In this document: in pieces, positions 1 through 53,828 of the stretch
Layout of the letters: every line of letters begins with the position of its first letter
Position numbering within the stretch: position 1 is the first letter of the stretch
NCBI GenBank assembly: GCA_025738555.1
Contig: JAOVFP010000010.1
Location: 1,550,001-1,614,000, forward strand
DNA from: Cyathus striatus
Lineage: Eukaryota; Basidiomycota; Agaricomycetes; Agaricales; Nidulariaceae
Direction: 5' to 3'
Length of the DNA stretch: 64,000 nt
Translations under genes and position numbers: made by a program
The notes under the pieces: generated by a model
What the model saw: the letters and a program-made list of their open reading frames with translations, nothing else
Told to the model about the DNA's origin: nothing
Databases searched by the model: none

Positions 1-1259
1 ATGACAGTGACTATGCACCACCCAAGAGATACTGCCCAGAGCCAGATGATCTTTTGGATACTATTATCCTTTCAGATGGAGATGAAGCCACTGAAGATTC
101 TGATTTATGCAAGATGATTGTGAGTAATGTATTTATTATAGATTCGAGCATTGTCACTTACATTTCTGCTGTGCTGTAGAATCAGAAACATCAAGAAAAG
201 CGAAGTAAAGATGTGGGAAATGTTCAGGGCTCATGTCTGACAAAGAAGAAATGAAAGCCAAAGTCAAAAGTGAGCCTAGCTATTATATTGTGATTCCAAA
301 CTCACATTTATAATTCTGTCAGAAACTGAAGTCACCTGAGGTTGTATGCATAGCCAAAGAAGCACCTATTACATTTGATTCAGCTGAGGAATCAGATGGT
401 GGTGCTGCTCTTCAGGCAGTTCAGGCAGCTGTGGCAAAAGTGAAAGGAGCATGTCAAGGCCCAGCAAATCGAAGTATGCAGCATTATGGAGAACCTACAC
501 CCATCATTGGTGCAGAGAGGTCACTTTGTTGGGAGTTCAAATGCAAATTTCATTCTTGGTACATTTCTCTCACATATTGTAATGATATCTCTTTATTAAC
601 TGTTATTATTCATGGTATTAGTACATGCACTTTTGCTTGTACAGTACCTGGAAGGAGTGCAAAATTTGATGATGAAATAACAATTCCAGCAGGCTTAACA
701 ATCTCACAACACATCTCACCAAATGTACTGCATACAAGAAGAGAAAGGAAAAGGCTGATCAAGAAACTGAAGATGAAGGTGACGTACCCATAACAACTTA
801 CAAGGAGACGAATGATATCATGGACAAGTTCCTTCTAAAAGGAAAGCTGAACCCTGCCATTGTCCACAATAAGGCAGGGTTCCTTTGGATCTTTTCAGCA
901 TGGATCCTTGACAATGATTTGCCCTGGACTACAGGTGAATCAAACATGCTTGCTAATCTTTTCAAGTACCTCAAGATATCTTATATGCTGCCAAGTGATA
1001 CAGCAGTACATAACAAGCTAGCAAAGATATTTGCAGAATTGCATGCAAAGGTGGTGGAAGAGCTTTTGGTACACATATCCCTCCTCTGCTGTATTCAGTT
1101 CTAAACTTCTAATATGTTCTATAGAAAATCAAATCAAAGTTTGCATTCACTACTGATACATGGACCAACAAGCAAATGATTTATACATTTGCTTGTTCCA
1201 TTGCATCATTTATTGATGATGACTGGACTCTTGTCGAGCACGTAATTGATTTCTGCCCA

Positions 1260-1922
1260 TGTGATATCCCGTATCACCTACCTCCAGACCCCTATGCTCT
1301 TACTCCACCTTTCCCTTTGTTTACTCCAGACTTTGATTATGTTCTTAGTATTACTTATTGCTTACTGTATATAGATTACTTTCGTTTCCTTTCTTCCGCC
1401 CTACTGAGCTATCCCCTCAGTATTGTAGTATACATCTCATAGTGAGTCACTTATCATTCTTAAGTGTGCCACTATCAGTTTTACTTTACACCACCATATG
1501 CACTCACTTCTCTGACATGTTTTATTATGTTTAATTAGTTATAGTCTTCATTCTACATATGCCTACCCTGACTGTACTTCTCCGCTGGCCTTGGCCAGCA
1601 GCCTTTACTTACTCCGAGTCTCTAGTATTTAAGTAGTACTTGATTTGTACTTAGCCTTTAGTTTTGTATTGAACTACATCCTCACCCTTTTGTCTGACTT
1701 GAGTTATACCTCTTGTCTTCTGTCTCTTGTCTTCTCTGAAGGGCTTGCCCTTACTCCAAAATACAGGACCAGGAATCCCAGGGGCGCAGCACATAAGCTG
1801 AAGCCAAAGTCCTACCCCCTGAGTTCTCGTTCTCTGCTTTCGTCTATTACTCACTCCTCACTTCTCCATAGTCACCCCCTCGTACTCCACCGCCAAGTCA
1901 GGCTAGGGGCATGGTCGTGACA
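1260..1922 (-). mobile_element. Solo LTR inserted in the hAT gene, 5-bp target duplication
   Basis: The 663-bp segment begins TGTGATATCCCG and ends GGTCGTGACA, so it has TG..CA ends. It is flanked on both sides by GCCCA (1255-1259 and 1923-1927). Read on the minus strand it starts TGTCACGACC and contains CTGCGCCCCTGGGA. That resembles TTGCGCCCCTTGGA in the solo LTR at 34042-34650, so both belong to one LTR retrotransposon family inserted in opposite orientations. Removing it restores the hAT frame. No internal retrotransposon sequence is present, so it is a solo LTR left by LTR-LTR recombination. Confidence 0.88.
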
Positions 1923-3236
1923 GCCCATTGGAGAGCAAGGAGCATGAGGGCTTATATGCTGCTCACTCATTTATTGATAGTGCTCATAAAGCTGGCATTT
2001 TGAGCAAGATAAGTTTATCCTCTATTCTATTCTTTCATGTACTAACATTATTTGTACTTCTCAGCGATCTCCATGGACAACACAAGTGTAAATGATGTGC
2101 TCTTCCAAAATGTGGCCTGTGCACTGCTCACACTTTATGACATACCTGAGCATAAAGATTGCCAAATCAGATGTCTTGCACACATTATCAATCTTGTTGC
2201 TCAAGCAATACTCTCTGCTGTTGGAGAAGCAGAGGAATGTCTTGATGATGGTGGTGAGTCAGACCACTTCCTCCTCAATAAGAATATGCCAATACACTAC
2301 AGTGCCGATGACAATGTGGAACTTCAAGAGCTTGAAACTAATCGAGATGTGGACATCAGTTTGAGAGATGATTTAGATGTGGTAAAGGGGGGATATGAGA
2401 TTGCACTAGATGAGGAAGAAGCAAGTGAGGTTGGGCAAAGTGCACTACAATGGGTATGTACATCTGCGGTTATTCTTATACTTGAACATTCACAACTGAA
2501 GCACTGGTTACTTTTCTATCAGCTTCAATTCATCACAAAAAAAATAACTTCCTCTCCTCAACAGAGACAATGATTCTGGAAAATATCTTCAGAGATATAT
2601 GGAGAGTCAAAACATGTGAATGAGAAGATACCAAACAGCCCCCTGCTTTCCAAGCTAATAGTCACCAGAGACATTTGTACAAGATGGAACTCAACCCATG
2701 CCATGATTGGGTGGGCTATTATTCTTCAAGAGGCAAGTTTATTTCAATTTAGGGACTCACAAGTTATGGCTAATAGTTTCATAGGCTATTAATCACTGAT
2801 CTTCAAGACTAAAGAATATGAAGAATTGCTGTTAGGAAAGAAAGACTGGGAGCAGTTGGATCAGCTGTGGAGTGTATTGGATGTGCATAATCATTATTCA
2901 GTATCATATAGATCCTTCCATCTAACTACAATAATGAAGTGTTTTACTGTGCATACACAGCAGCTCTCAATGTCATGGTGTCCAATGATCCCCTTTGTTC
3001 TCCCCATCTACAACTCCCTCAAGAAACATCTTAATGATGTCACTACAAGACAAGACCTCTCCTGGGAGCTCCATACAGCAGCTGGTGTTGGTAAAGGAAA
3101 GCTCATGAAATACAAAATGAAAGTGATTACCAACCACAACTATATTCTCAGGACAGGTATGTATGACAATGATTATGCTCCTTTTACATAGAACTCAATG
3201 ATACTGTGATTATTAGTCCTTCACCCGAGGTCATGT

Positions 3237-4611
3237 CACTGACCCACAGTCTCAGTAGAATCCAGTGAGATTCTCATGAGATTCTCTGATACTCCAGTGA
3301 GAATCCAGTGATATTTCTGAGAGTGTGGAGAGAGATTAGTGAGACTTTGGTGAGACTACACTGAGAAAATGAACAATTTCATCTCACTAAAATCTCAGCA
3401 AATTCTCATTTAGGTGAGAATCTCTTAGAGTCCAGTGATACTATAATGAGATGAATCTCAGAGAGTCCAATGAGAATTTAGTGAGAATAAGTCACTGGAC
3501 TCTCAGTACAGTCTCTGACATTTAACTCTGTTGTTACAAATTCCCACACAATATTTCATAAGATCTCTCTGCACCAAGCTGTACCTAGACTTTATTGTCA
3601 CAGTGATAACATGTTTCCCACAGTCATCACACTTGTCACACATGTGTGAAAGTGTGACATCTTGGAAAAGCGTGACATTTTGGAAAAAGTGCAACATGTG
3701 TGATATGTGTGACATATCATAGACATCACACTTGTCACACTTTTTCCAATATTGTCCAATATGTCACATGTCACGCTTTTTCAACATTTTTCAACATGTT
3801 GGAAAATGTTAGAAGAGGTGTGGTGCCTAAGCTGTACATAGACTCTATTGTCATATATGTGTGAAAGTGTGACATGTTGGAAAATGTTGGAAAAAGCGTG
3901 ACATGTGTGACAAGCGTGGGAAAAAGCGTGACATATTGGAAAATGTTGGGGAAGAAATGTGACATATGTGACAAGCGTGGGAAAAAATGTGACATGTTTG
4001 GAAAAGTATCACATATCATAACCATCACACTTGCCACACTTCTCCAAACATGTCACCCTTTTTCCCACGCTTGTCACACGTGTCACGCTATCACACATGT
4101 GTGACAAGTTTGATGATTGTAGGAAGTGTGAAAGTGTGACATGTCGGAAAATGTTGGAAAAATCGTGACAAGTGTGGGAAAAGTGTGACATGTTGGAAAA
4201 GCGCAACATGTATGACATATCATAGCCATCACACTTGTCACATTTTTTCCAACATGTCACATATGTCACGCTTTTTCCAATATTTTCCAATATGTCAGAC
4301 ATGTCACACTATGCTTTTCACTCCAACATGTCACACATATCACACTTTTGATAATATGTCACACTTTATCCAACATTTTCCAACATGTCACACTTTCACA
4401 CATGTGTGACAAGTGTGATAACTGTGGGAAACATGTTACAACTGTGATAATAGAGTCTAGGTTCAAGTAGAGTCCAGGTGCCCTACTGATAGTGTAGTGA
4501 GACTCTCACTGGATTCTCAATAGTCTAGTGAGAGTCTAGTGAGTCTCTCACTGAACTCTCAATAGTCTGGTGAGAGTCCAGTGAGAGTCCAGTGATAACT
4601 GTGGGAGAGTG
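3237..4611. mobile_element. Foldback-type non-autonomous element inside the hAT gene
   Basis: The ends read CACTGACCCACAGT and (reverse complement of the right end) CACTCTCCCACAGT. Inside lie blocks rich in CCAGTGAGA/TCTCACTGG. A longer inverted pair follows: 3577-3660 (ACCTAGACTTTATTGTCACA...) matches the reverse complement of about 4389-4480. The centre is satellite-like DNA. No coding capacity is seen. It separates the hAT exon ending near 3154 from the C-terminal part starting near 4612. I found no convincing target duplication, so the exact ends are approximate. Confidence 0.65.
3640..4440. repeat. GTGTGACA/GGAAAATGTTGGAAAA satellite-like array
   Basis: Irregular direct and inverted repeats of GTGTGACATGTTGGAAAATG followed by TTGGAAAAAGCGTGACA, in both orientations. 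Unit length is about 29-30 bp where regular. The same unit appears in the foldback element at 45848-46243. Short reading frames in this array are by-products of the repeat. Confidence 0.85.
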
Positions 4612-5389
4612 CAACATACTGCTCAAATGCCAATACCAGCATCATATAGTACCCAGCTCTCAGCATCCAGTAGCTTGGCAAGTCTTTGTGACTTCAACTT
4701 CAGTGTTCTGGTTGCATCTGCTCCAACTCTGCATCAGCAACTTGAAGAAGAGCTCCAGCACTATTTTGCATTTGGAGGCCATGGTGAGGTACATGATCCT
4801 CTGTTGTGGTGGAAGGTATGTCATCATACTTGATATATTTCACATAAGAATGCAAGAATGCAAGCTCAATGTTTATCTACATCATAAACAGACACATGAA
4901 ACATTATTCCCCACACTGGCAAGAATGGCAAGAGACATTCTAGCCATACCTGCGACTAGTGTGTCCATTAAGCAGACATTTTCGAAGTCTTGTCAAATTT
5001 GTACTGACTTGTGGAGCTCACTACAGGCTGAAATGATCTGTGAGGCATTACTAACGAAGGTATGGATTAGGAGTGACCTTTTCAATCTCATTCAAAAGCC
5101 AAAGCCTCTCAAAAAACATGGCAGTTGGTGCCTACTGGTTGATTTGTAGTTGAACATATTAGTTACATGCCAGGTAGGATAGTAGATGTGAATGTTATTC
5201 AGTACTGAATATACTACATACATATGAACTGCATTTACACTGCTACTCACCATCCAACTGACTCTTCCTCCCACAGCACCATTTCCAATGAGCATACATC
5301 CTCCTTGACTTCACAGCATCATCCCCAATGGGCCCAGGCCACCCACCCAACCCATCCTCTCACAGTATCATCCCCAATGAGGCGAGGTG

Positions 5390-5935
5390 AGAGAGACGAT
5401 GCCAACAGATTTATCCTCTCGTCGACATACTCCCACACAAACATACCCCCTACCCCTTGTTGATGCATGCCCACACCAACATACCCCCTCATTGTATATC
5501 CTCCCATCAACCCCCTACCCCTTGTCAGCATACACCCATGCTAATGTACCCCCTTGTTGAGGTATCCCCTTGTCGATGCACCACCTTATTGACATATGTC
5601 CACACAAACATGCTGCCTCACCAACATACCCTGTTGTTGACATATGTCCACACAAACATGCTGCCTCACCAACATACCCTGTTGTTGACATACACCCACA
5701 CAAACATGCCCCCTCATATCCCCTCATTGACATACACCCATGTAGACATACCCCCTCACAAATGCACCCTGTCGTCGATGTACACCCATGCAAACATACC
5801 CCCTTGTCGACATACACTCATGTAGACATACCCCCTCACAAATGTACCCCCTCACAAACACACCCCCTCACAAACATACCCTGTCATCAGCATGCACCCA
5901 TGCAAACATACCCCCTCATCAACATACACATCTCC
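5390..5935. repeat. Minisatellite of CACAAACATACCCCCT-type units
   Basis: Degenerate tandem repeats built on GACATACACCCATGCAAACA followed by TACCCCCTCA. At about 5580-5690 a 51-bp unit (GACATATGTCCACACAAACA...) occurs twice almost unchanged. All frames on both strands stay fairly open only because the repeat lacks stop codons, so the Pro/His/Thr-rich frames here are not called as genes. Confidence 0.8.
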
Positions 5936-5939
5936 TTCC

Positions 5940-7680
5940 CCCCATTCTCATATGTGGACTCCAGCACCAGTGTGCATGCCTGGTTGTATCACCTTACACC
6001 AGTGAGCATATATCTCCTTCTCCCCCACCCCCTAGTCAGCACCAGTGAGCATGTTCAAGTCCAAGCCCCATTGAGTTCTTGGCACATCCACCATGGCCTC
6101 TCCTTCAGCTCCCTCCAGCTCAACTATCCATGGTGGTGACACAGGCAAGGAAGAGAGAGGGCAGAGGAGGGGAGGCTGGATGATGATGTATTGGCACTGT
6201 TCTGGCCAGCAGGGGGTGGGTGGTCATGAGTGGAGTTGGTTGTTGGGCATGTTGGAACTTGGTGGCTGCTGGCGAAACACATGGTGTAGTTGGTGGTGAT
6301 GGGTGTCATTGTGCTGGTAACACAGGTGGGGGAGACAGAGGTGGGGAGGCTGGATGATGTTACATTGATGCTCAGTGATGAGTGTTCTAGCCAACTGGAT
6401 AGGTGTCGTCGTCTTGATGCAGGGGAGGAGGGAGGAGGGAGGAGGGAGATGGGCTTGATGACATGGCATAAACACTGTTCTTGCCAGTGGCATTGTTGTT
6501 GGGGATTGCAGATTGGAGAACACTGCTAGCATGGATGTGGATGTGGGAGGGGTGCATGGTGTCACAATGCTAGGAGTGGGGGAACAGCCAGAACGAGGGA
6601 AGGCAGTGCAAACACAGACAGTGTGATGTCATAAGGCTGGGTTAGGGGGAAGACCAGAACTATAGCAGGCTTGTGCACTGTGCAGATGAGATGCCACCCC
6701 CAGAAAGGCTAACAGGCAACAGCAGGACTACAGAACTAAACAGATGGTTAGCTTCAGTTAGAGATGATATAGGAACTAGATATAACACACTAGGAGCTGC
6801 TTGAGGATATAAGTTGTGGTCCTTGCAGCTCAGTGCTGCGGCATGCTGCTGCAGTAGGGTGAGGGAGTGGGGAACATATGACATGTAGTGTCAGTGTTAC
6901 ATTCTGATGAGTCAGGTCACACTGGTCACATATCACATGATCTATATCATTATCCTATACATTTTACACTATATCCCTATATATACTATTAGTATACTAT
7001 AATTACACTATCCCTATAAATACTTTGTGAGGTGTATAGGGATAGTACAGAGTTGGAGCCTTAATTATAACACATGGGTAGCTACAGGTTACAGGTAACT
7101 TGAAGCTGACCAGTACCCATACCCACTAGTACCCATACCTGTGACCTGTGTGGGTATGGTGTACCTGAGCCATTGCCTAGTCAACATTGTCTATTCACAA
7201 TCTTTCATCTATTGCTGGCTATCTATTTAATTTTCCTCTTCCTTACAATATAGGAAAACCTCAACTAATTCACTGTTTGTCCCTCTTCAAAAATCAGTAC
7301 ATGTCCAATCCAAATCTGTTCAATGTTCCGTTTCTTCATTGATAGATACCATTAGTTCATATTTGCACTTGTTTACATCACATTTCTTTTGAACACACTA
7401 TGTCTTACCTATACTATAACTCTTTATTCTCAAACTGTCTGGTCTCAATTTTACTTTGAGTACAAAACTATACATTCTGCCAACAAGCATTTGTATCTGT
7501 TTTAGCTTAGCACTAGATCCAAACTATTATACAGGATCCATAATGTGCTTTTGCAAATCAGCTTCAGTTTGCATCACCTTACGATTATATAGCACAAAGG
7601 GAAGTGAAATATATATTCAGTGCAAAGATATATGTTCAGGTACAGACTTCTTGCTAGTTCCTATTTTAACCTAACAAAAG
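5940..7680. other. No gene recognised; imperfect repeats
   Basis: I see no supportable gene. An imperfect duplication is visible: the word GGGGAGGCTGGATGATG at about 6170 recurs near 6345, each copy preceded by a GTAACACAGG/GTGACACAGG stretch. From 6900 onward the DNA is AT-rich with no recognisable coding pattern. Confidence 0.5.
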
Positions 7681-27995: not shown

Positions 27996-29084
27996 TCAAG
28001 AATGCCACATCCTAATAAGGAAAAGAAGCTTACTGTTTGCTATTGCAGTTGGTGTAACGGGGTAACAATGACAGAAGCACAATATCTTGCACACAAGGAA
28101 GAAACCAAGGTTGAAGCCGATCTTCGAGACCTTGAAGATCAAGTATTTTCCATCACTCTCCAGGATGTCTGTTCCTTGCCTATTCAAGACTCTCCACTGT
28201 TTCTTGCCCCACCTCCTCCGTCATATGAAATGGACATGCAAATGATGTTCTGAAATTTATTCGAGTATGATAGGAATCTTGAAAGTTCTTGTGATAGCAT
28301 CCATGCTGTGTATTTTGAGTGGCTAGAAGATGGAACATGAAATCCAGCCTCACAAAAAGAGGGTGCCAGGTTCCTCACAAGAAGTGATGCACATGCATTT
28401 CTCGTGAACCAAGAAGCCTGGCTATGAGGCCTTATAGCTAGGCTTCATCTCATTCCCACTTCAGGTGATGACGCAAATACTTCATTCAAATGTTCGATAC
28501 AGGAATGAGCAGAGAACCTATTGGTGGACATCCATGTGCGCATTCAACATTGGAGCAATCTGGGTGTTTCTTATGGGAAATACTATGATACTAGTGAGTA
28601 ACTTCGATGTTATTGACAGTGCGATTAGTAACTTGATTATCATAGGTAGTCACTTTGACCATCCCTTTCGCCTTGGCCATCCAATCATTGCAGCTTCCCT
28701 TTTCCTTACTGTCGCTGTCAATGTTTTTGTGAATACTGCCAGGCCTACTTGCAACTTTATCCTCCATATGGTCAAGCTTTTACTTGGTTCAGTTCTCTCA
28801 GCTGATCAGAAGTCCGTGCTCGAATCGGAGTGGTGTCAGCCAAAATTATCATTAAACCTCTGGCTTATATGAGTGCAGTATTTATTATATGCATGAACAG
28901 GATTATTCATAAGTAATCATTGTCTATAATACTATTATGTGTACTATTGTTACACATACTCATATGTACTCATTACTTCATGTTTCTCATTATTAGTGTA
29001 CTACTATTACTATTATGAGTACTCATAAGTACTCATTACTGGAAGTTTCTTATTGTTATATTGAATATTAGTATGGATGGTTAG

Positions 29085-29300
29085 GTGATCATAAACAATC
29101 ATTAATCTGTACTAATTGAATATTGGTATTGTATAAATGGCTAGGTGATCATAAACAATCATTAATCTGTACTAATTGAGTATTATATGAATGGCTAGTT
29201 GATCATAAACAATCATTAATCTGTACTAATTGAATATGGCTATTGTATGAATGGTTAGATGATCATAAACAATCATTGATTTTTCTAATTGAATGTAGTG
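29085..29300. repeat. AT-rich subterminal direct repeats (left arm, copy 1)
   Basis: Four units of about 45-57 bp carrying GATCATAAACAATCATTAAT + CTGTACTAATTGA. Matching inverted arrays lie at 32480-32755, and in the second element at 47865-48080 and 51610-51960, with different copy numbers. Regular, copy-variable subterminal motifs are what transposase-binding arrays look like; that role is inferred. Confidence 0.8.
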
Positions 29301-29494
29301 ATCATTAGTGATCATTCAGGGTTTCAAGAGTATATTCACCTACTATTACTAGTTGTATGGTGATCATAAGTGATCATTAAGCATTTGAAAAGTATATTTA
29401 TCTACTATTACTAATCTAATAGTGGTCATAAGTGATCATTGAATATTGCAAGGGTATATTAGTATATTATTAATACTAGTAAATCCACATCATC

Positions 29495-30130
29495 ACATTT
29501 GTCACGTTCTTACTGCGCGTCACATATATCACACATATTCCCGCGCATGGGGATTGTCACGCTCTTACCGCGCGTCACATCTGTCACACATATTCCCGCG
29601 CATGGGAATCGTCACGTTCTTCTCGCGCGTCACATATGTCACACATATTCCCGCGCTTCACATTTGTCACGTTCCTCCCGCGCGTCACACATGTCACATA
29701 TATTCCCGCGCATCGCATCTGTCACGTTCTTACGCACGTCACACCTGTCACACATATTCCCGCGCTTCACATTTGTCACGCTCTTACCGCGCGTCACGTC
29801 TGTCACACATATTCCCGCGCATGGGGATTGTCACGTTCTTCTCGCGCGTTACATATGTCACACATATTCCCGCGCTTCACATTTGTCACGTTCCTCCCGC
29901 GTGTCACATATGTCACACTTATTCCCGCGCATCGCATTTGTCACGTTCCTCCCGCGTGTCACATATGTCACACATATTCCCGCGCATCGCATTTGTCACG
30001 TTCTTCTCACACATCACATATATCACACATATTCCCGCGCTTTACATTTGTCACGCTATTCATGCGCGTCACGCTTTTGTCACATTCTACCCACACATCA
30101 CATATACCACGCTTTTCATATGCGTGACAC
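29495..30130. repeat. 55-bp CpG-rich minisatellite, left arm of copy 1
   Basis: About eleven 55-bp units; each has TTGTCACGTTC, CGCGCGTCACATATGTCACA and CATATTCCCGCGCATCGCAT. The unit keeps CpG (GCGCG, TCACG) while surrounding repeat DNA has lost it. Because 55 = 3x18+1 and the unit has no stop codon on this strand, all three frames stay open; these frames are not genes. Confidence 0.9.
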
Positions 30131-30249
30131 ATGTGTCACGATTGTCACGCTTTACTAACATGTCATGGTTTTTATGCATGTCACATTCTTGATAATGTCA
30201 CACTTATCATGTTTTTGAGGGGTTTCACATGTTTTAACACTTGTCACAT

Positions 30250-31640
30250 ATTTCAGGTGCAACACAAGATTTTTGCAAATGTCATATTTTCCATCACTTT
30301 TTAGACCTGTAATCACAAGTAAAATATCTCAAGTTATATTCATCAGATACAGGACATAACAAAAGTATGTGTACTTATTTTTGCTTTTACATTTGCTCAC
30401 ACTTGTGGAGCCTGAATGCACAGTGAGAAGATGAATTATGAGGTACTGAACACTTAACAGCTAAAGGGAGAGAAGTTGATCATGTGTGTGTGGTTACCTA
30501 TATATCCATTCTATTGTTCAAATTGTTACAGAAGCAAAGTATCCAAATGCACAGAGTAATTTATTAAAACAAAGAAAACAAAGAAAACAAATATGTTTTT
30601 GTAGAATTGATGGTCATCACATGGGATATGACAATTAGAAAATTGTAGAAGTGTAACAATAATAAGAAAGTAGAATTAAAAAGTAGAATGTATCTGTAGG
30701 TACCATTGAAATATGAGATATTTTTCAATCAGAACTTAAGATGTGATATGATGGCATTAAATATTTTCCTATTGAAAAGAACAGTGATAGAGTCACATGA
30801 ATAAAAAATGTGAAAGATTAGTGAAATGTGTGATTCCACATCAAACTTACACATCTCAATCATTAGATGATTATGATTCTTGCATCAAGCATTGGTTAAA
30901 CAAAAGTCTTTAACAAACATTATTGAGTCACATATCTGTTTACTCTACATGGCTACTTCACAGTTTCTTTGTTTTAGTGATACAAAGAGATAATGGAAAC
31001 TATCTTTACTCCCAACAATATTGTGTCACAATTCACTTCTACACTGCCATATGTGTTCACATTTCTGACATATGTTATATAGTTCATTTTCTTCCTCTGC
31101 TTCTGATGAGGTAACTATAAACAAACCTGAAGTACTGTCGCATATATGAAGGTTTGTATCCATTTTTAAGTATGAAAACACCTCTGGTACTTCTCTACAT
31201 GTTCTTGCCCAGTGGTCATTGCTTTCTTGCTTTTCAACAGTCAGACACCATCTAGAATTGACACTCAGCAAGCATTTCACAATATTCTTGCTCAATCTAG
31301 TATCAGGACATGGTTCATACAATTGTTATTGTTGAATTTCCTTCTAATGAATGATTTTCAAATATAAATAAGTTGTTAATATCAAAGGACAAATTACATT
31401 ACTAAGTAATGAACTAACAGTTAACTGTGGTATCACTGTGCAGCATTGTCAATGACTGAGTCAGACTGTATCAGTCAAAAGAGTCTAAGTCAGTTATTAA
31501 CAGTCAGCTGGTCAGCCACTAATTGTCAATAGAAAAGGTGAAACACCTCAGCCTTATAATTCTTGGGTCATACACAAGATGTGGAAAACATTGACCTCCA
31601 TTGACTAACCCTTTCAACACTGTCACTGGGTGCTCTGACT
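30250..31640. other. Central region of foldback element copy 1
   Basis: About 1.4 kb, AT-rich, no inverted partner inside the element. The same sequence forms the centre of copy 2 (about 49000-50330) but in opposite orientation. It holds one conserved frame (31026-31322, minus strand) and otherwise only non-coding DNA. Confidence 0.75.
31026..31322 (-). CDS. Small frame conserved in both foldback cores; captured exon?
   Basis: 98 codons starting MYEPCPDTRLSKNIVKCLLS and continuing NSRWCLTVEKQESNDHWAR, EVPEVFSYLKMDTN. Copy 2 (49329-49517, plus strand) has MYGPCPDTRLGKNIVKCLLS and matches for about 58 codons, then differs by a deletion that shortens it to 62 codons. The Cys/Trp content and lack of low complexity look coding. 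No homology is recognised. It could be a captured host exon, or part of the lost autonomous element's gene. Promoter and terminator were not identified. Confidence 0.35.
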   Translation of the reverse strand: MYEPCPDTRLSKNIVKCLLSVNSRWCLTVEKQESNDHWARTCREVPEVFSYLKMDTNLHICDSTSGLFIVTSSEAEEENELYNICQKCEHIWQCRSEL

Positions 31641-31744
31641 CTTCAGATACAAAAGATATGACAAATGTGACATGTGACACATATCAAAGACATCACATAT
31701 GTGATGCATGTGAAGAATGTGACATATGTGACTCGTGACATCCA

Positions 31745-32285
31745 TCAAAAACGTGACGCGCGTGAATAGCGTGACAATCGTGACAAATGTGTCACATGTG
31801 TGAAAAATGTAATGTGTGGGTAGAATGTGACAAAAGCGTGACGCGCATGAATAGCGTGACAAATGTAAAGCGCGGGAATGTGTGTGATATATGTGATGTA
31901 TGAGAAGAATGTGACAAATGCGATGTGCGGGAATATGTGTGACAAATGCGATGCGTGGGAATAAGCGTGACATATGTGATGCGCAGTAGGAACGTGACAA
32001 AAGCGATGTGCGGGATTATGTGTGACATATGTGACACGCGGGAGGAACGTGACAAAAGTGATGCGCAGGAATATATGTGACATGAGTGACGCGCGGGAGG
32101 AACGTGACAAATGTGAAGCGCGGGAATATGTGTGACATATGTGACGCGCGAGAAGAACGTGACGATTCCCATGCGCGGGAATATGTGTGACAGATGTGAT
32201 GTGCGGTAAGAGCGTGATAATCCCCATGCATGGGAATATGTGTGATATATGTGACGTGCAGTAAGAACGTGACAAATGTGATGCT
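31745..32285. repeat. 55-bp CpG-rich minisatellite, right arm of copy 1
   Basis: About ten 55-bp units, inverted relative to the left arm (ATGCGCGGGAATATGTGTGA + CA..GTGACGCGCG). Frames on the minus strand (up to 178 codons) are an effect of the stop-free repeat. More CpG has decayed here (GATGTGCGG, GATGCGTGG) than in copy 2. Confidence 0.88.
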
Positions 32286-34041
32286 GTGGATTTACTAGTA
32301 TTAATAATATACTAATATACCCTTGCAATATTCAATGATCACTTATGACCACTATTAGATTAGTAATAGTAGATAAATATACTTTTCAAATGCTTAATGA
32401 TCACTTATGATCACCATACAACTAGTAATAGTAGGTGAATATACTCTTGAAAACCCTCAATGATCACTAATGATCACTATATTCAATTAGAAAAATCAAT
32501 GATTGTTTATGATCATCTAACCATTCATACAATAGCCATATTCAATTAGTACAGATTAATGATTGTTTATGATCACCTAGTCATTCATATAATACTCAAT
32601 TAGTACAGATTAATGATTGTTTATGATCACCTAGCCATTTATACAATAGCAATATTCAATTAGTACAGATTAATGATTGTTTATGATCACCTAGCCATTC
32701 ATATAATACTCAATTAGTACAGATTAATGATTGTTTATGATCACCTAACCATCCATACTAATATTCAATATAACAATAAGAAACTTCCAGTAATAAGTAC
32801 TTATGAGTACTCATAATAGTAATAGTAGTACACTAATAATGAGAAACATGAAGTAATGAGTACATATGAGTATGTGTAACAATAGTACACATAATAGTAT
32901 TATAGACAATGATTACTTATGAATAATCCTGTTCATGCATATAATAAATACTGCACTCATATAAGCCAGAGGTTTAATGATAATCATTGGCTGACACTAA
33001 TGCGAATCGATACCTGACGACTTGCGAATCGCGAGAAAAAAGTTCAACTTGGATCCCAAAACAACTATGTTCGCTACTTGTCAAGCCTGCGCATCTATTT
33101 ACCCCCCAGATGAAAAGAGTGCATACCCTTTTTGCTGTACCTTCAAACACTTTACCAGTGTGAAACTGTGTGGAGTGCACTTAACAAAGCATGCTGTTCG
33201 GAATGGTATAACCATCGCAGTTCCTTCGAGGCCATATGTAATGCAGGACTTTACAGCTTTTGCAGGAGCACTGTACTCATGCCCTGGAATAGAGCAATTG
33301 ATTGATTGCACTAGGCATGCAATATCTGTTGATGGGATTTGAGATATCAATCAAGCAGTAGCAATTCGTCAGTTTATTGATGCTGACAGTAAAGTATTTG
33401 TTGACTCAAATGAAGAACTACGCACTCTCTGGAGTATAAGCTATGACACTTTTAACCCTTATCACAACAAAGCGGCAGGAAAATCAGTGTCAGTAGGATC
33501 ATTGGCTCTTGTATGTCTTAGCTTACCCCCAAGTTTGCGGTACCGTTCAGAGAACATCTATCTCACTGGGTTGATACCAGGGCCGCGTCAGCCATCATTA
33601 GATGGCCTAAATCCTTACTTAGCTCCATTAGTAGATGTCCTTCACAAGAGCTATCATCAGGGTACTTGGTATAGCTGCACATATGAACATCCTAATGGGA
33701 TTCGTGGTTGTGAGGCTATTGTTCCTGCAGTTTGCGATCTACCTGGCTCTCATAAACTTACAGGTTGTGCATTGCATTCTGTGACAATTTTTTGTTCTCT
33801 GTGTCATCTCTGGAAGCCAGATATTAATAACATTGACTGCTCATCCACCAGCTGGATGCCAGTTACATATGAAGAGCACTTTAAAGTGGCAGCCGACTGG
33901 CGAGATGCTTTCACTAAAACTCAAAGGAACAATCTTTTTTAAAAAAATGGAGTTCGATGGTCAGAGCTGCTCCATCTGGAATACTGGGATCTGACAAAGT
34001 ACACAGTCATTGATGGAATGCACAACTTATATCTGGGTTTG

Positions 34042-47601: not shown

Positions 47602-48279
47602 AATGTCAGAGTGGTGTCAGCCAAAATTATCATTAAACCTCTGGCTTATATGAGTGCAGTATTTATTATATGTATGAACAGGATTATTCATAAGTAATCA
47701 TTGTCTATAATACTATTATGTGTACTATTGTTACACATACTCATATGTACTCATTACTTCATGTTTCTCATTATTAGTGTACTACTATTACTATTATGAG
47801 TACTCATAAGTACTCATTACTGGAAGTTTCTTATTGTTATATTGAATATTAGTATGGATGGTTAGGTGATCATAAACAATCATTAATCTGTACTAATTGA
47901 ATATTGGTATTGTATGAATGGCTAGGTGATTATAAACAATCATTAATCTGTACTAATTGAATATGGCTATTGTATGAATGGCTAGGTGATCATAAACAAT
48001 CATTAATCTGTACTAATTGAATATGGCTATTGTATGAATGGTTAGATGATCATAAACAATCATTGATTTTTCTAATTGAATATAGTGATCATTAGTGATC
48101 ATTGAGGGTTTCAAGAGTATATTCACCTACTATTACTAGTTGTATGGTGATCATAAGTGATCATTAAGCATTTGAAAAGTATATTTATCTACTATTACTA
48201 ATCTAATAGTGATCATAAGTGATCATTGAATATTGCAAGGGTATATTAGTATATTATTAATACTAGTAAATCCACAGCA

Positions 48280-48945
48280 TCACATTTGTCACGTTCTTAT
48301 GGCGCGTCACATACGTCACGCTTATTCCCGCGCATCGCGATTGTCACGTTCTTACGCGCGTCACACCTGTCACGCATATTCCCGCGCATGGGGATTGTCA
48401 CACTCTTACCGCGCGTCACATCTGTCACACATATTCCCGCGCATGGGGATTGTCACGTTCCTCCCGCGCGTCACACATGTCACATATATTCCCGCGCATC
48501 GCATTTGTCACGTTCTTACGCGCGTCACACCTGTCACACATATTCCCGCGCATGGGGATTGTCACGCTCTTACCGCGAGTCACATCTGTCACACATATTC
48601 CCGCGCATGGGGATTGTCACGTTCTTCTCGCGCGTCACATATGTCACACATATTCCCGCGCTTCACATTTGTCACGTTCTTCCCGCGCATCACCTCTGTC
48701 ACACTTATTCCCGCGCATCGCATTTGTCACGTTCCTCTCGCGTGTCACATATGTCACACATATTCCCGCGCATCGCATTTGTCACATTCTTCTCACACAT
48801 CACATATATCACACATATTCCCGCGCTTTACATTTGTCACGCTATTCATGCGCGTCACGCTTTTGTCACATTCTACCCACACATCACATATGCCACGCTT
48901 TTCACACATGTGACACATTTGTCACGATTGTCACGCTATTCATGT
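48280..48945. repeat. 55-bp CpG-rich minisatellite, left arm of copy 2
   Basis: About twelve units of the 55-bp repeat (TTGTCACGTTC...CGCGCGTCAC...CATATTCCCGCGCATCG). CpG sites are mostly intact. The three overlapping plus-strand frames of 192-226 codons are repeat artefacts. Confidence 0.9.
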
Positions 48946-49328
48946 GCGTCACGTTTTTGATCTTTGATATGTGTCACATGTCACATTTGTCATACCTTTT
49001 GTATCTGAAGAATCAGAGCACCCAGTGACAGTGTTGAAAGGTCAGTCAATGGAGGTCAATGTTTTCCACATCTTGTGTATGACCCAAGAATTATAAGGCT
49101 GAGGTGTTTCACCTTTTCTATTGACAATTAGTAGCTGACCAGCTGACTGTTAATAACTGACTTAGACTCTTTTGACCGATACAGTCTGACTCAGTCATTG
49201 ACAATGCTGCACAGTGATACCACAGTTAACTGTTAGTTCATTACTTAGTGATGTAATTTGGCCTTTGATATTAACAACTTATTTATATTTGAAAATCATG
49301 TCAATAGAAGGAAATTCAACAATAGCAG

Positions 49329-49517
49329 TTGTATGGACCATGTCCTGATACTAGATTGGGCAAGAACATTGTGAAATGCTTGCTGAGTGTCAATTCTAGA
49401 TGGTGTCTGACTGTTGAAAAGCAAGAAAGCAATGACCACTGGGCAAGAATGAGTAGAGAGGTACCAGAGGTGTTTTCATACTTAAAAATGGATACAAATG
49501 CTAAAAGAACTATATAA
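49329..49517 (+). pseudogene. Copy-2 version of the conserved core frame, shortened
   Basis: MYGPCPDTRLGKNIVKCLLS, then NSRWCLTVEKQESNDHWAR and EVPEVFSYLKMDTN match the frame at 31026-31322. Here a deletion after MDTN (copy 1 continues LHICDSTSGLFIVTSSEAEE) joins AAATG to CTAAAAG and ends the frame at TGA-free TAA 49515. The longer form is therefore probably ancestral. Confidence 0.4.
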
Positions 49518-50384
49518 CATATGTCAGAAATGTGAACACATATGGCAGTGTAGAAGTGAATTGTGACACAATATTGCTGGGAGTAAAGATAGTTTCTATT
49601 ATCTCTTTGTATCACTAAAACAAAGAAACTGTGAAGTAGTCATGTAGAGTAAACAGATATGTGACTCAATAATGTTTCTTAAAGACTTTTGTTTAACCAA
49701 TGCTTGATGCAAGAATCATAATCATCTAATGACTGAGATGTGTAAGTTTGATGTGGAATCACACATTTTGCTAATCTTACACATTTTTTATTCATCTGTG
49801 GCTCTATCACTGTTCTCTTCAATAGGAAAATATTCACTGCCACCATATCACATCTCAAGTTCTGATTGAAAGATATCTCATACTATCTAATTTCTAAATT
49901 TCTCATACTTTTTCAATGGTACCTACATATACATGCTACTTTTCAATTCTACTTTCTTATTATTGTTACACTTCCACAATTTTCTAATTGTCATATCCCA
50001 TGTGATGACCATCAATTCTACAAAAACATATTTGTTTTCTTTGTTTTCTTTGTTTTAATAAATTACTCTGCGCATTTGGATACTTTGCTTCTGTAACAAC
50101 TTGAACAATAGAATGGATATATAGGTAACCATCTTACTCTTGTTATGTCCTGTATCTGATGAATAAAACTTGAGATATTTTACTTGTGATTACAGGTCTA
50201 AAAAGTGATGGAAAATATGACATTTGCAAAAATCTTGTGTTGCACCTGAAATATGTGACAAGTGTTAAAACATGTGAAACACCTCAAAAACATGATAAGT
50301 GTGACATTATCAAGAATGTGATATGCATAAAAACCATAACACATTAGTAAAGTGTGACAATCATGACACATGTGTTATGCATGT

Positions 50385-51475
50385 GAAAAGCATGGTATAT
50401 GTGATGTGTGGGTAGAATGTGACAAAAGCGTGACGCGCATGAATAGCGTGACAAATGTAAAGCGCGGGAATATGTGTGATATATGTGATGTGTGAGAATA
50501 ATGTGACAAATGCGATGCGCAGGAATATGTGTGACATATGTGACATGCGGGGAGGGGTGACAAATGCAATGCGTGGGAATGAGCGTGACATATGTGACAC
50601 GCGAGAGTAACGTGACAAATGCGATGCGCGGGAATATGTGTGACAGGTGTGACACGCGGGGAGGCGTGACAAATGCGATGTGCGGGAATAAGCGTGACAT
50701 ATGTGACACGTGGGAGAAACGTGACAAATGCGATGCGCGGGAATATGTGTGACATATGTGACACGCGAGAGGAACGTGACAAATGCGATGCGCGGGAATA
50801 AGTGTGACAGAGGTGATGCGCGGGAAGAACGTGACAAATGTGAAGCGCGGGAATATGTGTGACATATGTGACACGCGAGAGGAACGTGACAAATGCGATG
50901 CGCGGGAATAAGTGTGACATAGGTGTTGCGCGGGAATATGTGTGACATATGTGACGCGCGAGAAGAACGTGACAATCCCCATGCGCGGGAATATGTGTGA
51001 CAGATGTGACTCGCGGTAAGAGCGTGACAATCCCCATGCGCGGGAATATGTGTGACAGGTGTGACGCGCGTAAGAACGTGACAAATGCGATGCGCGGGAA
51101 TATATGTGACATGTGTGACGCGCGGGAGGAACGTGACAATCCCCATGCGCGGGAATATGTGTGACAGATGTGACGCGCGGTAAGAGCGTGACAATCCCCA
51201 TGCGCGGGAATATGTGTGACAGGTGTGACGCGCGTAAGAACGTGACAAATGCGATGCGCGGGAATATATGTGACATGTGTGACGCGCGGGAGGAACGTGA
51301 CAATCCCCATGCGCGGGAATATGTGTGACAGGTGTGACGCGCGGTAAGAGTGTGACAATCCCCATGCGCCGGAATATGCGTGACAGGTGTGACGCGCGTA
51401 AGAACATGACAATCGCGATGCGCGGGAATAAGCGTGACGTATGTGACGCGCAGTAAGAACGTGACAAATGTGATG
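50385..51475. repeat. 55-bp CpG-rich minisatellite, right arm of copy 2
   Basis: About twenty units, the longest array in the window. A three-unit higher-order pattern is visible (units ending AATCCCCATGCGCGGG, AATGCGATGCGCGGG and AATGTGAAGCGCGGG alternate). CpG is well kept. Three minus-strand frames of 319-381 codons overlap each other completely and are not genes. Confidence 0.9.
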
Positions 51476-52198
51476 CTGTGGATTTACCAGTATTAATAAT
51501 ATACTAATATACCCTTGCAATATTCAATGATCACTTATGATCACCATACAACTAGTAATAGTAGGTGAATATAATCTTGAAACCCTCAATGATCACTAAT
51601 GATCACTATATTCAATTAGAAAAATCAATGATTGTTTACGATCATCTAACCATTCATACAATAGCCATATTCAATTAGTACAGATTAATGATTGTTTATG
51701 ATCACCTAGCCATTCATACAATAGCCATATTCAATTAGTACAAATTAATGATTGTTTATGATCATCTAGCCATTCATATAATAGCAATATTCAATTAGTA
51801 CAGATTAATGATTGTTTATGATCACCTAGCTATTCATATAATATTCAATTAGTACAGATTAATGATTGTTTATGATCACCTAGCTATTCATATAATATTC
51901 AATTAGTACAGATTAATGATTGTTTATGATCACCTAGCCATCCATACTAATATTCAATATAACAATAAGAAACTTCCAGTAATGAGTACTTATGAGTACT
52001 CATAATAGTAATAGTAGTACACTAATAATGAGAAACATGAAGTAATGAGTACATATGAGTATGTGTAACAATAGTACACATAATAGTATTATAGACAATG
52101 ATTACTTATGAATAATCCTGTTCATACATATAATAAATACTGCATTCATATAAGGCAGAGGTTTAATGATAATCATTGGCTGACACTAATGAATGTCA

Positions 52199-52646: not shown

Positions 52647-53828
52647 ACAGAACAGTGTATAAAACATGGGAGATTTCATTTCAAAAGATATTGGAAGATT
52701 CAATTGACAATGGAAATGAAGATAGAGCAGCTACAGCACAATATGCAATAACTCTTATAAATATCTGTTCATTTTTTCATTATGAAAAGATGTCAAAATC
52801 AATATTTGAAAGAGCTGCAATGCATTTTCCAATACACAAGAAGTATTATGAAGAGATTGATTTGCCTTCATATCTACCATCTATGGATGTGTCAATTTTA
52901 AATGTGAATGAATGTGGTGAATGAGATGAATGGTTGTTTACAGAGAGCATTGAATTACTTCTTTCATTATCATTAATAAATAAAACTAAGATAAAATCAG
53001 TGTACAATGTACATCCACTGGTACAGACATATTGTCAAGATAGGTTATCAATGACAGACAGAAAAATGTGGATACTAAATGCTAGATCATTATTAGTGAG
53101 CTCTGTTTGTACTGAGGATACAACTGCAGAATATATCTATATGAACAATCTCCTGCCACATATTATACAAAATCTATGTCATGATGATAAAATAATTAAT
53201 TCCAAGTATTACAATGATATTTTCAGCATTTTAGCAAACATACTTAGAGATTGTGGTAAATATAATATGGAAGGAGTGTATAGATTAAGAGTTGCATTAA
53301 AATATTTGGAAAAGCTTGTGGGATATCATGAAACTTTGATTGATAGCTTAATAAACAAGGAAGACATGTGGTTGAGTATAGAGCAAGATTAATACAGATA
53401 ATCTTCACTATAATGAGATGGTACTCAGTGAACTTTATCACTTATCAGTTACATATTGGAACCAGGGTAAAGATATAAGTAGTCAACTGCTGGAGAACAA
53501 AGTTTTGGAGATGAGAAAGAAAATTCTAGGCAATGAGCACCCTAATACACTTCAGAGCATGGCCAGTCTTGCAGTTATATACAAGAATCTGGGTAAATAT
53601 AAAGATGCAGAAAAGATGAAAATTGAAGTTTTGGATATGAGAAAGCAAATTCTTGGCAATGAGCCTTCTAATACACTTCAGAGCATGGCCAGTCTTTCAT
53701 GGACATACACTATTCTGGGTAAACATAAAGATGCAAAAAAGCTGAATATTGACATTTTGGATATGAGGAAGAATATTCTTGATACAGTTACTGTCAATAG
53801 CATAATTGTTTATATTTATATATACTGA
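52647..53828 (+). pseudogene. 5'-truncated NLR (C-terminal NB-ARC part and TPRs)
   Basis: Sequence from 52647 matches the NLR at 63686-64000 (TVYKTWEISFQKILEDSIDN, YLPSMDVSILNVNECGE). The P-loop half of NB-ARC is missing, cut exactly at the MITE end. TGA at 52922-52924 replaces TGG of the intact gene (GEWDEWLF there). Downstream, SVYNVHPLVQTYCQDRLS closes the NB-ARC module. Then follow tetratricopeptide repeats of 42 residues (LGNEHPNTLQSMASLAVIYK, NLGKYKDAEKM.IEVLDMRK), the kinesin-light-chain type, with further stops near 53390-53420. It shows what the intact gene's C-terminus probably looks like beyond this window. Dead copy. Confidence 0.85.

Follow-up and report, generated by a model that had tools for sequence, protein, structure and literature searches.

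The 64,000-nucleotide stretch of Cyathus striatus DNA analysed here (the window; contig JAOVFP010000010.1, positions 1,550,001 to 1,614,000) carries two foldback elements of one family, elements 1 and 2. Both are very probably non-autonomous members of a group of Kyakuja-Dileera-Zisupton (KDZ) transposons with kilobase-long foldback ends, a placement made from sequence, because their ends are shared with elements of the same genome that encode a KDZ transposase and their arms are 73-77% identical to those of such elements. An earlier note on this DNA had left the family unplaced; its observation is accurate and its placement partly wrong.

Two foldback elements with 7-bp target duplications in the window

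Elements 1 and 2 and the features that define them are as follows.

28828..33002, + strand: element 1, foldback element of 4175 bp, probably non-autonomous, GAG end at left and CAT end (read inward) at right
28821..28827: left target duplication CGAATCG of element 1, present as a single copy at empty sites
33003..33009: right target duplication CGAATCG of element 1
28831..30150: left arm of element 1, long terminal inverted repeat (inverted repeats I1-I11; inner boundary approximate)
31760..32999: right arm of element 1, long terminal inverted repeat (inverted repeats I1-I11; inner boundary approximate)
29491..30072: 10.6 tandem copies of a 55-bp unit within the left arm of element 1
31939..32284: 6.3 tandem copies of a 55-bp unit within the right arm of element 1
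30250..31640: part of the element 1 spacer taken for the spacer comparison; relative to the ends it runs opposite to that of element 2
33487..33942, + strand: segment of the gene that element 1 interrupts, matching Transposase_21 (tnp2; PF02992, E 1e-8) and belonging to a multi-copy element
47609..52191, + strand: element 2, same family as element 1, 4583 bp
47602..47608: left target duplication AATGTCA of element 2
52192..52198: right target duplication AATGTCA of element 2

The sequence confirmed both elements as the earlier note had delimited them, with the same ends in each, CGAATCG on both sides of the first and AATGTCA on both sides of the second. The termini of element 1 are GAGTGGTGTCAGCC and GGCTGACACTAATG. 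Its arms, each of about 1.3 kb and 97-99% complementary in their outer parts, are joined by inverted repeats of 280 nt at 99%, 253 nt at 97% and 411 nt at 97%, plus weaker stretches. They are made up of 55-bp and 54-62-bp tandem arrays and enclose a spacer of about 1.5 kb, so that the whole has the structure of the foldback class, long inverted arms of short tandem repeats flanking a spacer.

Element 1 had been described as cut into a Tnp2 transposase gene whose frame reopens on excision. Joining its flanks with one CGAATCG indeed left the frame open across the junction, and the host gene is a tnp2 (PF02992). Fourteen uninterrupted genomic copies match the joined 198-nt site at 94-97% identity, and further, more distant ones reach 72-77%. 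Three of the 14 empty sites were inspected; CGAATCG occurs once in two of them, and CGAATTG once in the third. With the site uninterrupted in these copies and a 7-mer present once in those inspected, insertion of element 1 and the accompanying 7-bp duplication are directly shown, which is stronger support for insertion than restoration of the frame.

A KDZ transposase lies between the same ends

We searched the whole genome (107 Mb, 24 contigs) for longer relatives with the same ends, as the earlier note had proposed, and found elements of 16-18 kb that encode a CxC2-KDZ transposase. The 17.3-kb element at C14:2145873-2163210 has exact TGAGGCC on both sides, arms that align over 1.4-1.5 kb at 83%, and KDZ matches at 2149078-2149846. 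The element at C1:7642204-7658611, which lacks a target duplication, has arms of 1.1 kb at 86%, a CxC2 match (PF18803, E 1.6e-39, locus L010) and KDZ matches inside. On contig C9, elements A (C9:3010459) and B (C9:3773978) measure 17.7 and 17.6 kb and have arms of 1.5 kb; element A (locus L031) matches both PF18803 (CxC2, E 8.6e-39) and PF18758 (KDZ, E 3.9e-28). The KDZ catalytic domain was thus found between GAG and CAT ends in element A and in the C1 and C14 elements, and the CxC cysteine cluster stands N-terminal to it in L031 and L010. A search of 14 control genomes with PF18758 gave matches in none.

Between elements A and B, a 17.5-kb stretch reaching from inside the left arm to the CAT end is 99.3% identical, and their flanks differ. 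Their outer left arms form a separate alignment at 86%, with different tandem repeats. Since the near-identity takes in both the KDZ gene and the CAT end and the flanks are different, the KDZ gene moved together with the ends.

The window elements are linked to this group by their arms as well: the outer 232 bp of element 1 show 73-77% identity (E 1e-33 to 1e-49) to the arms of the C1 and C14 KDZ elements, so that their terminal repeats are homologous to those of a KDZ-encoding element. No KDZ match falls in the 64-kb window among the matches listed, in agreement with the earlier note, which saw no transposase inside the elements; that they are driven in trans, which it held to be necessary, is for the same reason a likely reading.

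We considered whether the ends could belong to another superfamily with 7-bp duplications (hAT7, P/Galileo or an atypical MULE), with KDZ genes merely nearby or nested. Published work is cited here from excerpts; in these, hAT7 (PMC12730594) and Galileo (PMC2775673) yield 7-bp duplications, and Galileo arms are likewise long and repetitive. Such an origin, for which no genome search with P, hAT or MULE domains was made, is nonetheless very improbable, as KDZ matches lie inside paired ends in a constant orientation, the identity of A and B spans KDZ gene and CAT end across different flanks, and the C14 KDZ unit is bounded by its own 7-bp duplication. Among the KDZ matches as far as listed (159 matches), which were merged by eye to 93 loci for this count, eight lay within 5 kb of the 100 listed GAG ends (of 142) on the inner side and none on the outer, against about 0.4 expected from their density. 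All eight read toward the GAG end, and six of them are copies of one arm family. Inner and outer matches numbered 9 and 3 within 10 kb and 11 and 5 within 15 kb, the inner ones again all reading toward the GAG end. With KDZ genes found between the same ends, we rejected an unplaced superfamily. That KDZ elements make 8-bp duplications only, the length given in the earlier note, is not supported either: the C14 element has 7 bp and the same length is published for Kyakuja, a KDZ branch (excerpt of PMC12730594).

With an approximate query, the closest protein relatives of the KDZ transposase came from Cyathus, Laccaria, Galerina and Amanita, all of them Agaricales. A second, conserved protein, divergent from the KDZ gene and with no Pfam family over its cut-off, is common to the C1 element (L009:6019-6339, − strand) and element A (L033:701-1075, + strand); the two copies are 36% identical over 110 residues (E 7e-19), and the elements belong to two arm families. 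Six open reading frames (ORFs) of L033 and three of L009 were scanned and none gave a Pfam family over the cut-off, hence no TET/JBP match there. For two further KDZ copies (C2:2363686 and C23:1293416), the sequence retrieved did not show a right end.

Genome-wide census of ends and target duplications

Exact copies of GAGTGGTGTCAGCC, CATTAGTGTCAGCC and CATAAGTGTCAGCC number 142, 37 and 378 in the genome, and the corresponding reversed-pattern controls 1, 0 and 0. Positions of 100 of the 142 GAG ends and of 100 of the 378 CATAAGTGTCAGCC CAT ends were used. We tabulated the flanks of 39 end pairs, thereby running part of the check that the earlier note had suggested. An exact 7-bp duplication was present in 25, a match at 6/7 in two, and no duplication in 12; duplications of 8 bp or more occurred in none of the 39. 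Together with the arms, these counts bear out the earlier note's view that this is a real element family with foldback structure and 7-bp duplications.

Pairs of a GAG-type and a CAT end (n=36) gave 25 exact duplications, two at 6/7 and nine without, and CAT/CAT pairs (n=3) gave none exact, none at 6/7 and three without. One GAG and one CAT end therefore seem to be required. The 12 pairs lacking a duplication comprise the three CAT/CAT pairs, two (L031/33 and L032/34) that take part in the exchanges described below, and seven without explanation. L016, one of the exact pairs, probably represents a duplicated locus, its near flanks being those of L015.

Nineteen of the 39 pairs came from the window and regions fetched earlier, with L029/30, L031/33 and L032/34 among them taken as KDZ carriers. 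The other 20 were chosen by eye on contigs C1-C3, using the orientation and spacing of the listed ends; five of these had one flank already known, and L069/70 was taken as a KDZ carrier. Regions L023-L026 gave a single end each and were not counted as pairs. At least four more CAT/CAT pairings and the inward GAG/GAG pairings C2:6683830/6685832 and C7:1546999/1547537 stand outside the 39.

At least five arm families are united by their outer 14-17 bp. Inside these they differ, any two families having at most 38 12-mers in common when 1-kb samples are compared, except that the arms of the window, C1 and C14 elements are related.

Several observations accompanied the census. L015 (C10:3800400-3804350) and L016 (C3:6430150-6434100) share duplication and near flanks in opposite orientation, either as a duplicated locus or through an insertion that preceded duplication of a host repeat. 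Exact CAT ends outnumber exact GAG ends in the genome (415 versus 142), either because variant left ends were missed or because CAT/CAT hybrid elements are common. At C1:467086/467882 and C4:1226670/1227151, GAG ends stand back to back 480-800 bp apart, which gives the impression of two almost adjoining elements. Two copies were rejected as the autonomous parent. The 9.8-kb copy on C19 (L011, C19:467700-477690) is longer because an LTR retrotransposon, of gypsy type to judge by eye from the ORFs, is nested in it at about 1226-6343; the foldback copy has kept its exact 7-bp duplication. L028 contains a copia-type gag (PF14223, E 2.1e-23, L028:2451-3371); this foldback copy belongs to another arm family and likewise has an exact 7-bp duplication.

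Spacers in both orientations

Spacers were compared in 13 copies, of which L016 (the duplicate of L015), L022 (a CAT/CAT pair), and L021 and L027 (no spacer match) were left out. When the remaining copies were turned GAG-left, the spacer had one orientation in element 2, L013, L015, L017, L018, L019 and L020 and the opposite orientation in element 1 and L014 (2/9). Both flipped copies have exact 7-bp duplications. Flipped spacers are the pattern expected if the two arms of an element cross over with each other, which they suggest.

Exchanged target duplications on contig C9

Four KDZ elements, A, B, D and E, lie in mixed orientation at 3.01-3.79 Mb of contig C9. Cross-comparison of flanks (seven GAG and five CAT) revealed that the 7-mer at the GAG end of A recurs exactly at the CAT end of E (TCTCACA), and that at the GAG end of E recurs exactly at the CAT end of B (GCAGTAC); the GAG flank of B and the CAT flank of D share 6 bp. 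By our own arithmetic, 0.002 exact cross matches would be expected for about 30 cross pairs. The rejoined E+B site is present intact in eight copies elsewhere in the genome, at 92-100% over about 200 nt, and the rejoined A+E site in 12, at 92-99%, plus weaker ones. The B+D join was matched at 93% by one copy, which differs by 11 nt in length, and at 84-87%, with gaps, by three others. A fourth exchange, between the GAG flank of D and the CAT flank of A, was rejected since no listed place covers both halves. In a reconstruction by hand, undoing three inversions between inverted copies (E/B, A/E and D/E) restored three sites and left D unmatched.

Such exchanges may equally well be or not be the record of chromosomal inversions produced by ectopic recombination between inverted KDZ copies, as in Drosophila Galileo. 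The two exact cross matches and the intact rejoined sites argue for inversions, and the spacers found in both orientations (2/9 versus 7/9) suggest that arms do recombine. In the 39-pair set, 2964 cross comparisons gave no exact match beyond the duplicated locus L015/L016, and six at 6/7, so that exchange was rejected as the cause of the missing duplications there. On the other side, the B+D join needs an indel, the pairing of the D GAG and A CAT flanks failed, and element C (contig C2) is unmatched.

Misjoins at 17.6-kb repeats that are 99% identical would give the same pattern. That the exchanged duplications are assembly errors of this kind is a serious possibility, to which we give somewhat less than an even chance: the repeats are long, A and B are 99.3% identical, and A-E all lack a duplication of their own. 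Yet both exact exchanges join neighbours on one contig and not the C2 or C23 flanks that were also compared, and the flips affect elements of 4-5 kb, which are less prone to misjoining and agree with recombination.

Proposed mechanism

We propose that the CxC2-KDZ transposase of the 16-18 kb relatives would recognise the asymmetric ends GAGTGGTGTCAGCCA and CATNAGTGTCAGCCA, acting in trans, and that the element would be cut out and pasted in by way of a 7-bp staggered cut, made presumably in trans. The long arms could double as recombination substrates, allowing the spacer to be flipped within an element and flanks to be swapped between copies; recombination would be the cause of the spacer flips and chromosomal inversion that of the exchanged duplications. 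The recurrent arm octamers GTGATCAT and GTACTCAT are possible, putative transposase binding sites. In five of the seven arms taken as representative, the first kilobase holds 4-13 copies of GTGATCAT, within tandem arrays and hence not independent, against at most 0.2 expected from first-order shuffles. The C1 and C14 arms have none; GTACTCA is frequent there (39 and 13). The figures for element 1 are 7 and 4.

Several points weigh against placing the window elements in this KDZ group. Among the seven KDZ elements read at both ends, only the C14 element has a duplication of its own; A, B, C, D, E and the C1 element lack one, though the exact exchanges explain the two ends of E and a single end in each of A and B. 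The nearest KDZ elements found, those on C1 and C14, are only 73-77% identical to the window family in their arms, and stops, in part perhaps introns, interrupt three of the four KDZ matches listed within them, so that these two may not be the currently active source of the window family.

Tentatively, and at somewhat less than an even chance, we suggest a KDZ group whose motif-rich foldback arms serve both transposase and recombination and have repeatedly inverted parts of a 0.8-Mb chromosome stretch, a fungal counterpart of Galileo. If this is true, the exchanged 7-bp duplications are a readable record of the order of inversion events.

Relation to known systems

Duplications of 7 bp are not new for KDZ elements, since they are reported for Laccaria Kyakuja, whose termini are CA..TG and which lacks terminal inverted repeats (Kojima 2025, excerpt of PMC12730594). 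The named families Kyakuja-1_LB and Kyakuja-2_LB of Laccaria bicolor resemble the present group in KDZ transposase, occurrence in Agaricomycetes and 7-bp duplication. The five best matches included CxC2-KDZ proteins of two Laccaria species, L. amethystina and L. bicolor, which may or may not belong to the named Kyakuja families. Unlike Kyakuja as described there, the present elements have GAG..ATG termini (TG at one end, no CA at the other) and arms of 1.1-1.5 kb, and many of them are non-autonomous foldback derivatives.

Zisupton, Dileera and Cryptococcus KDZ1 share the KDZ catalytic domain and large size, but make 8-bp duplications instead of 7: the excerpt of PMC12730594 gives 8 bp for Zisupton and for the Dileera element Zisupton-1_PGr, and that of PMC12810828 gives 8 bp, 241-bp terminal repeats and a CxC1 domain for KDZ1 and 4-8 bp for KDZ2/KDZ3. 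KDZ terminal motifs were characterised in a study of Marasmius oreades (PMC8290104, excerpt). Galileo, of the P superfamily, has long repetitive arms, 7-bp duplications and subfamilies, as here, and exchanged 7-bp duplications at its inversion breakpoints mark inversion by ectopic recombination (PMC2775673, excerpt). Its transposase is unrelated and its target consensus is GTAGTAC, whereas none is obvious by eye in the present duplications.

No paper on KDZ foldback elements was found by title or opening of the abstract, and kilobase-long foldback arms do not appear in the KDZ passages of PMC12730594 and PMC12810828. What is new would be kilobase-long KDZ foldback arms filled with tandem repeats, with signs of arm recombination, an earlier description being possible. 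A foldback family that looked orphan gains a transposase, and KDZ transposons are extended to a structure best known from Drosophila Galileo, apparently of independent origin. Were the exchanges real rearrangements, KDZ elements would be a source of inversions in mushroom genomes, and exchanged 7-bp duplications a simple way to detect such events in the absence of a comparison genome.

Just past element 2, the window also holds a fragment of a tetratricopeptide-repeat protein (53418-53828; PF13374, E 3.1e-22).

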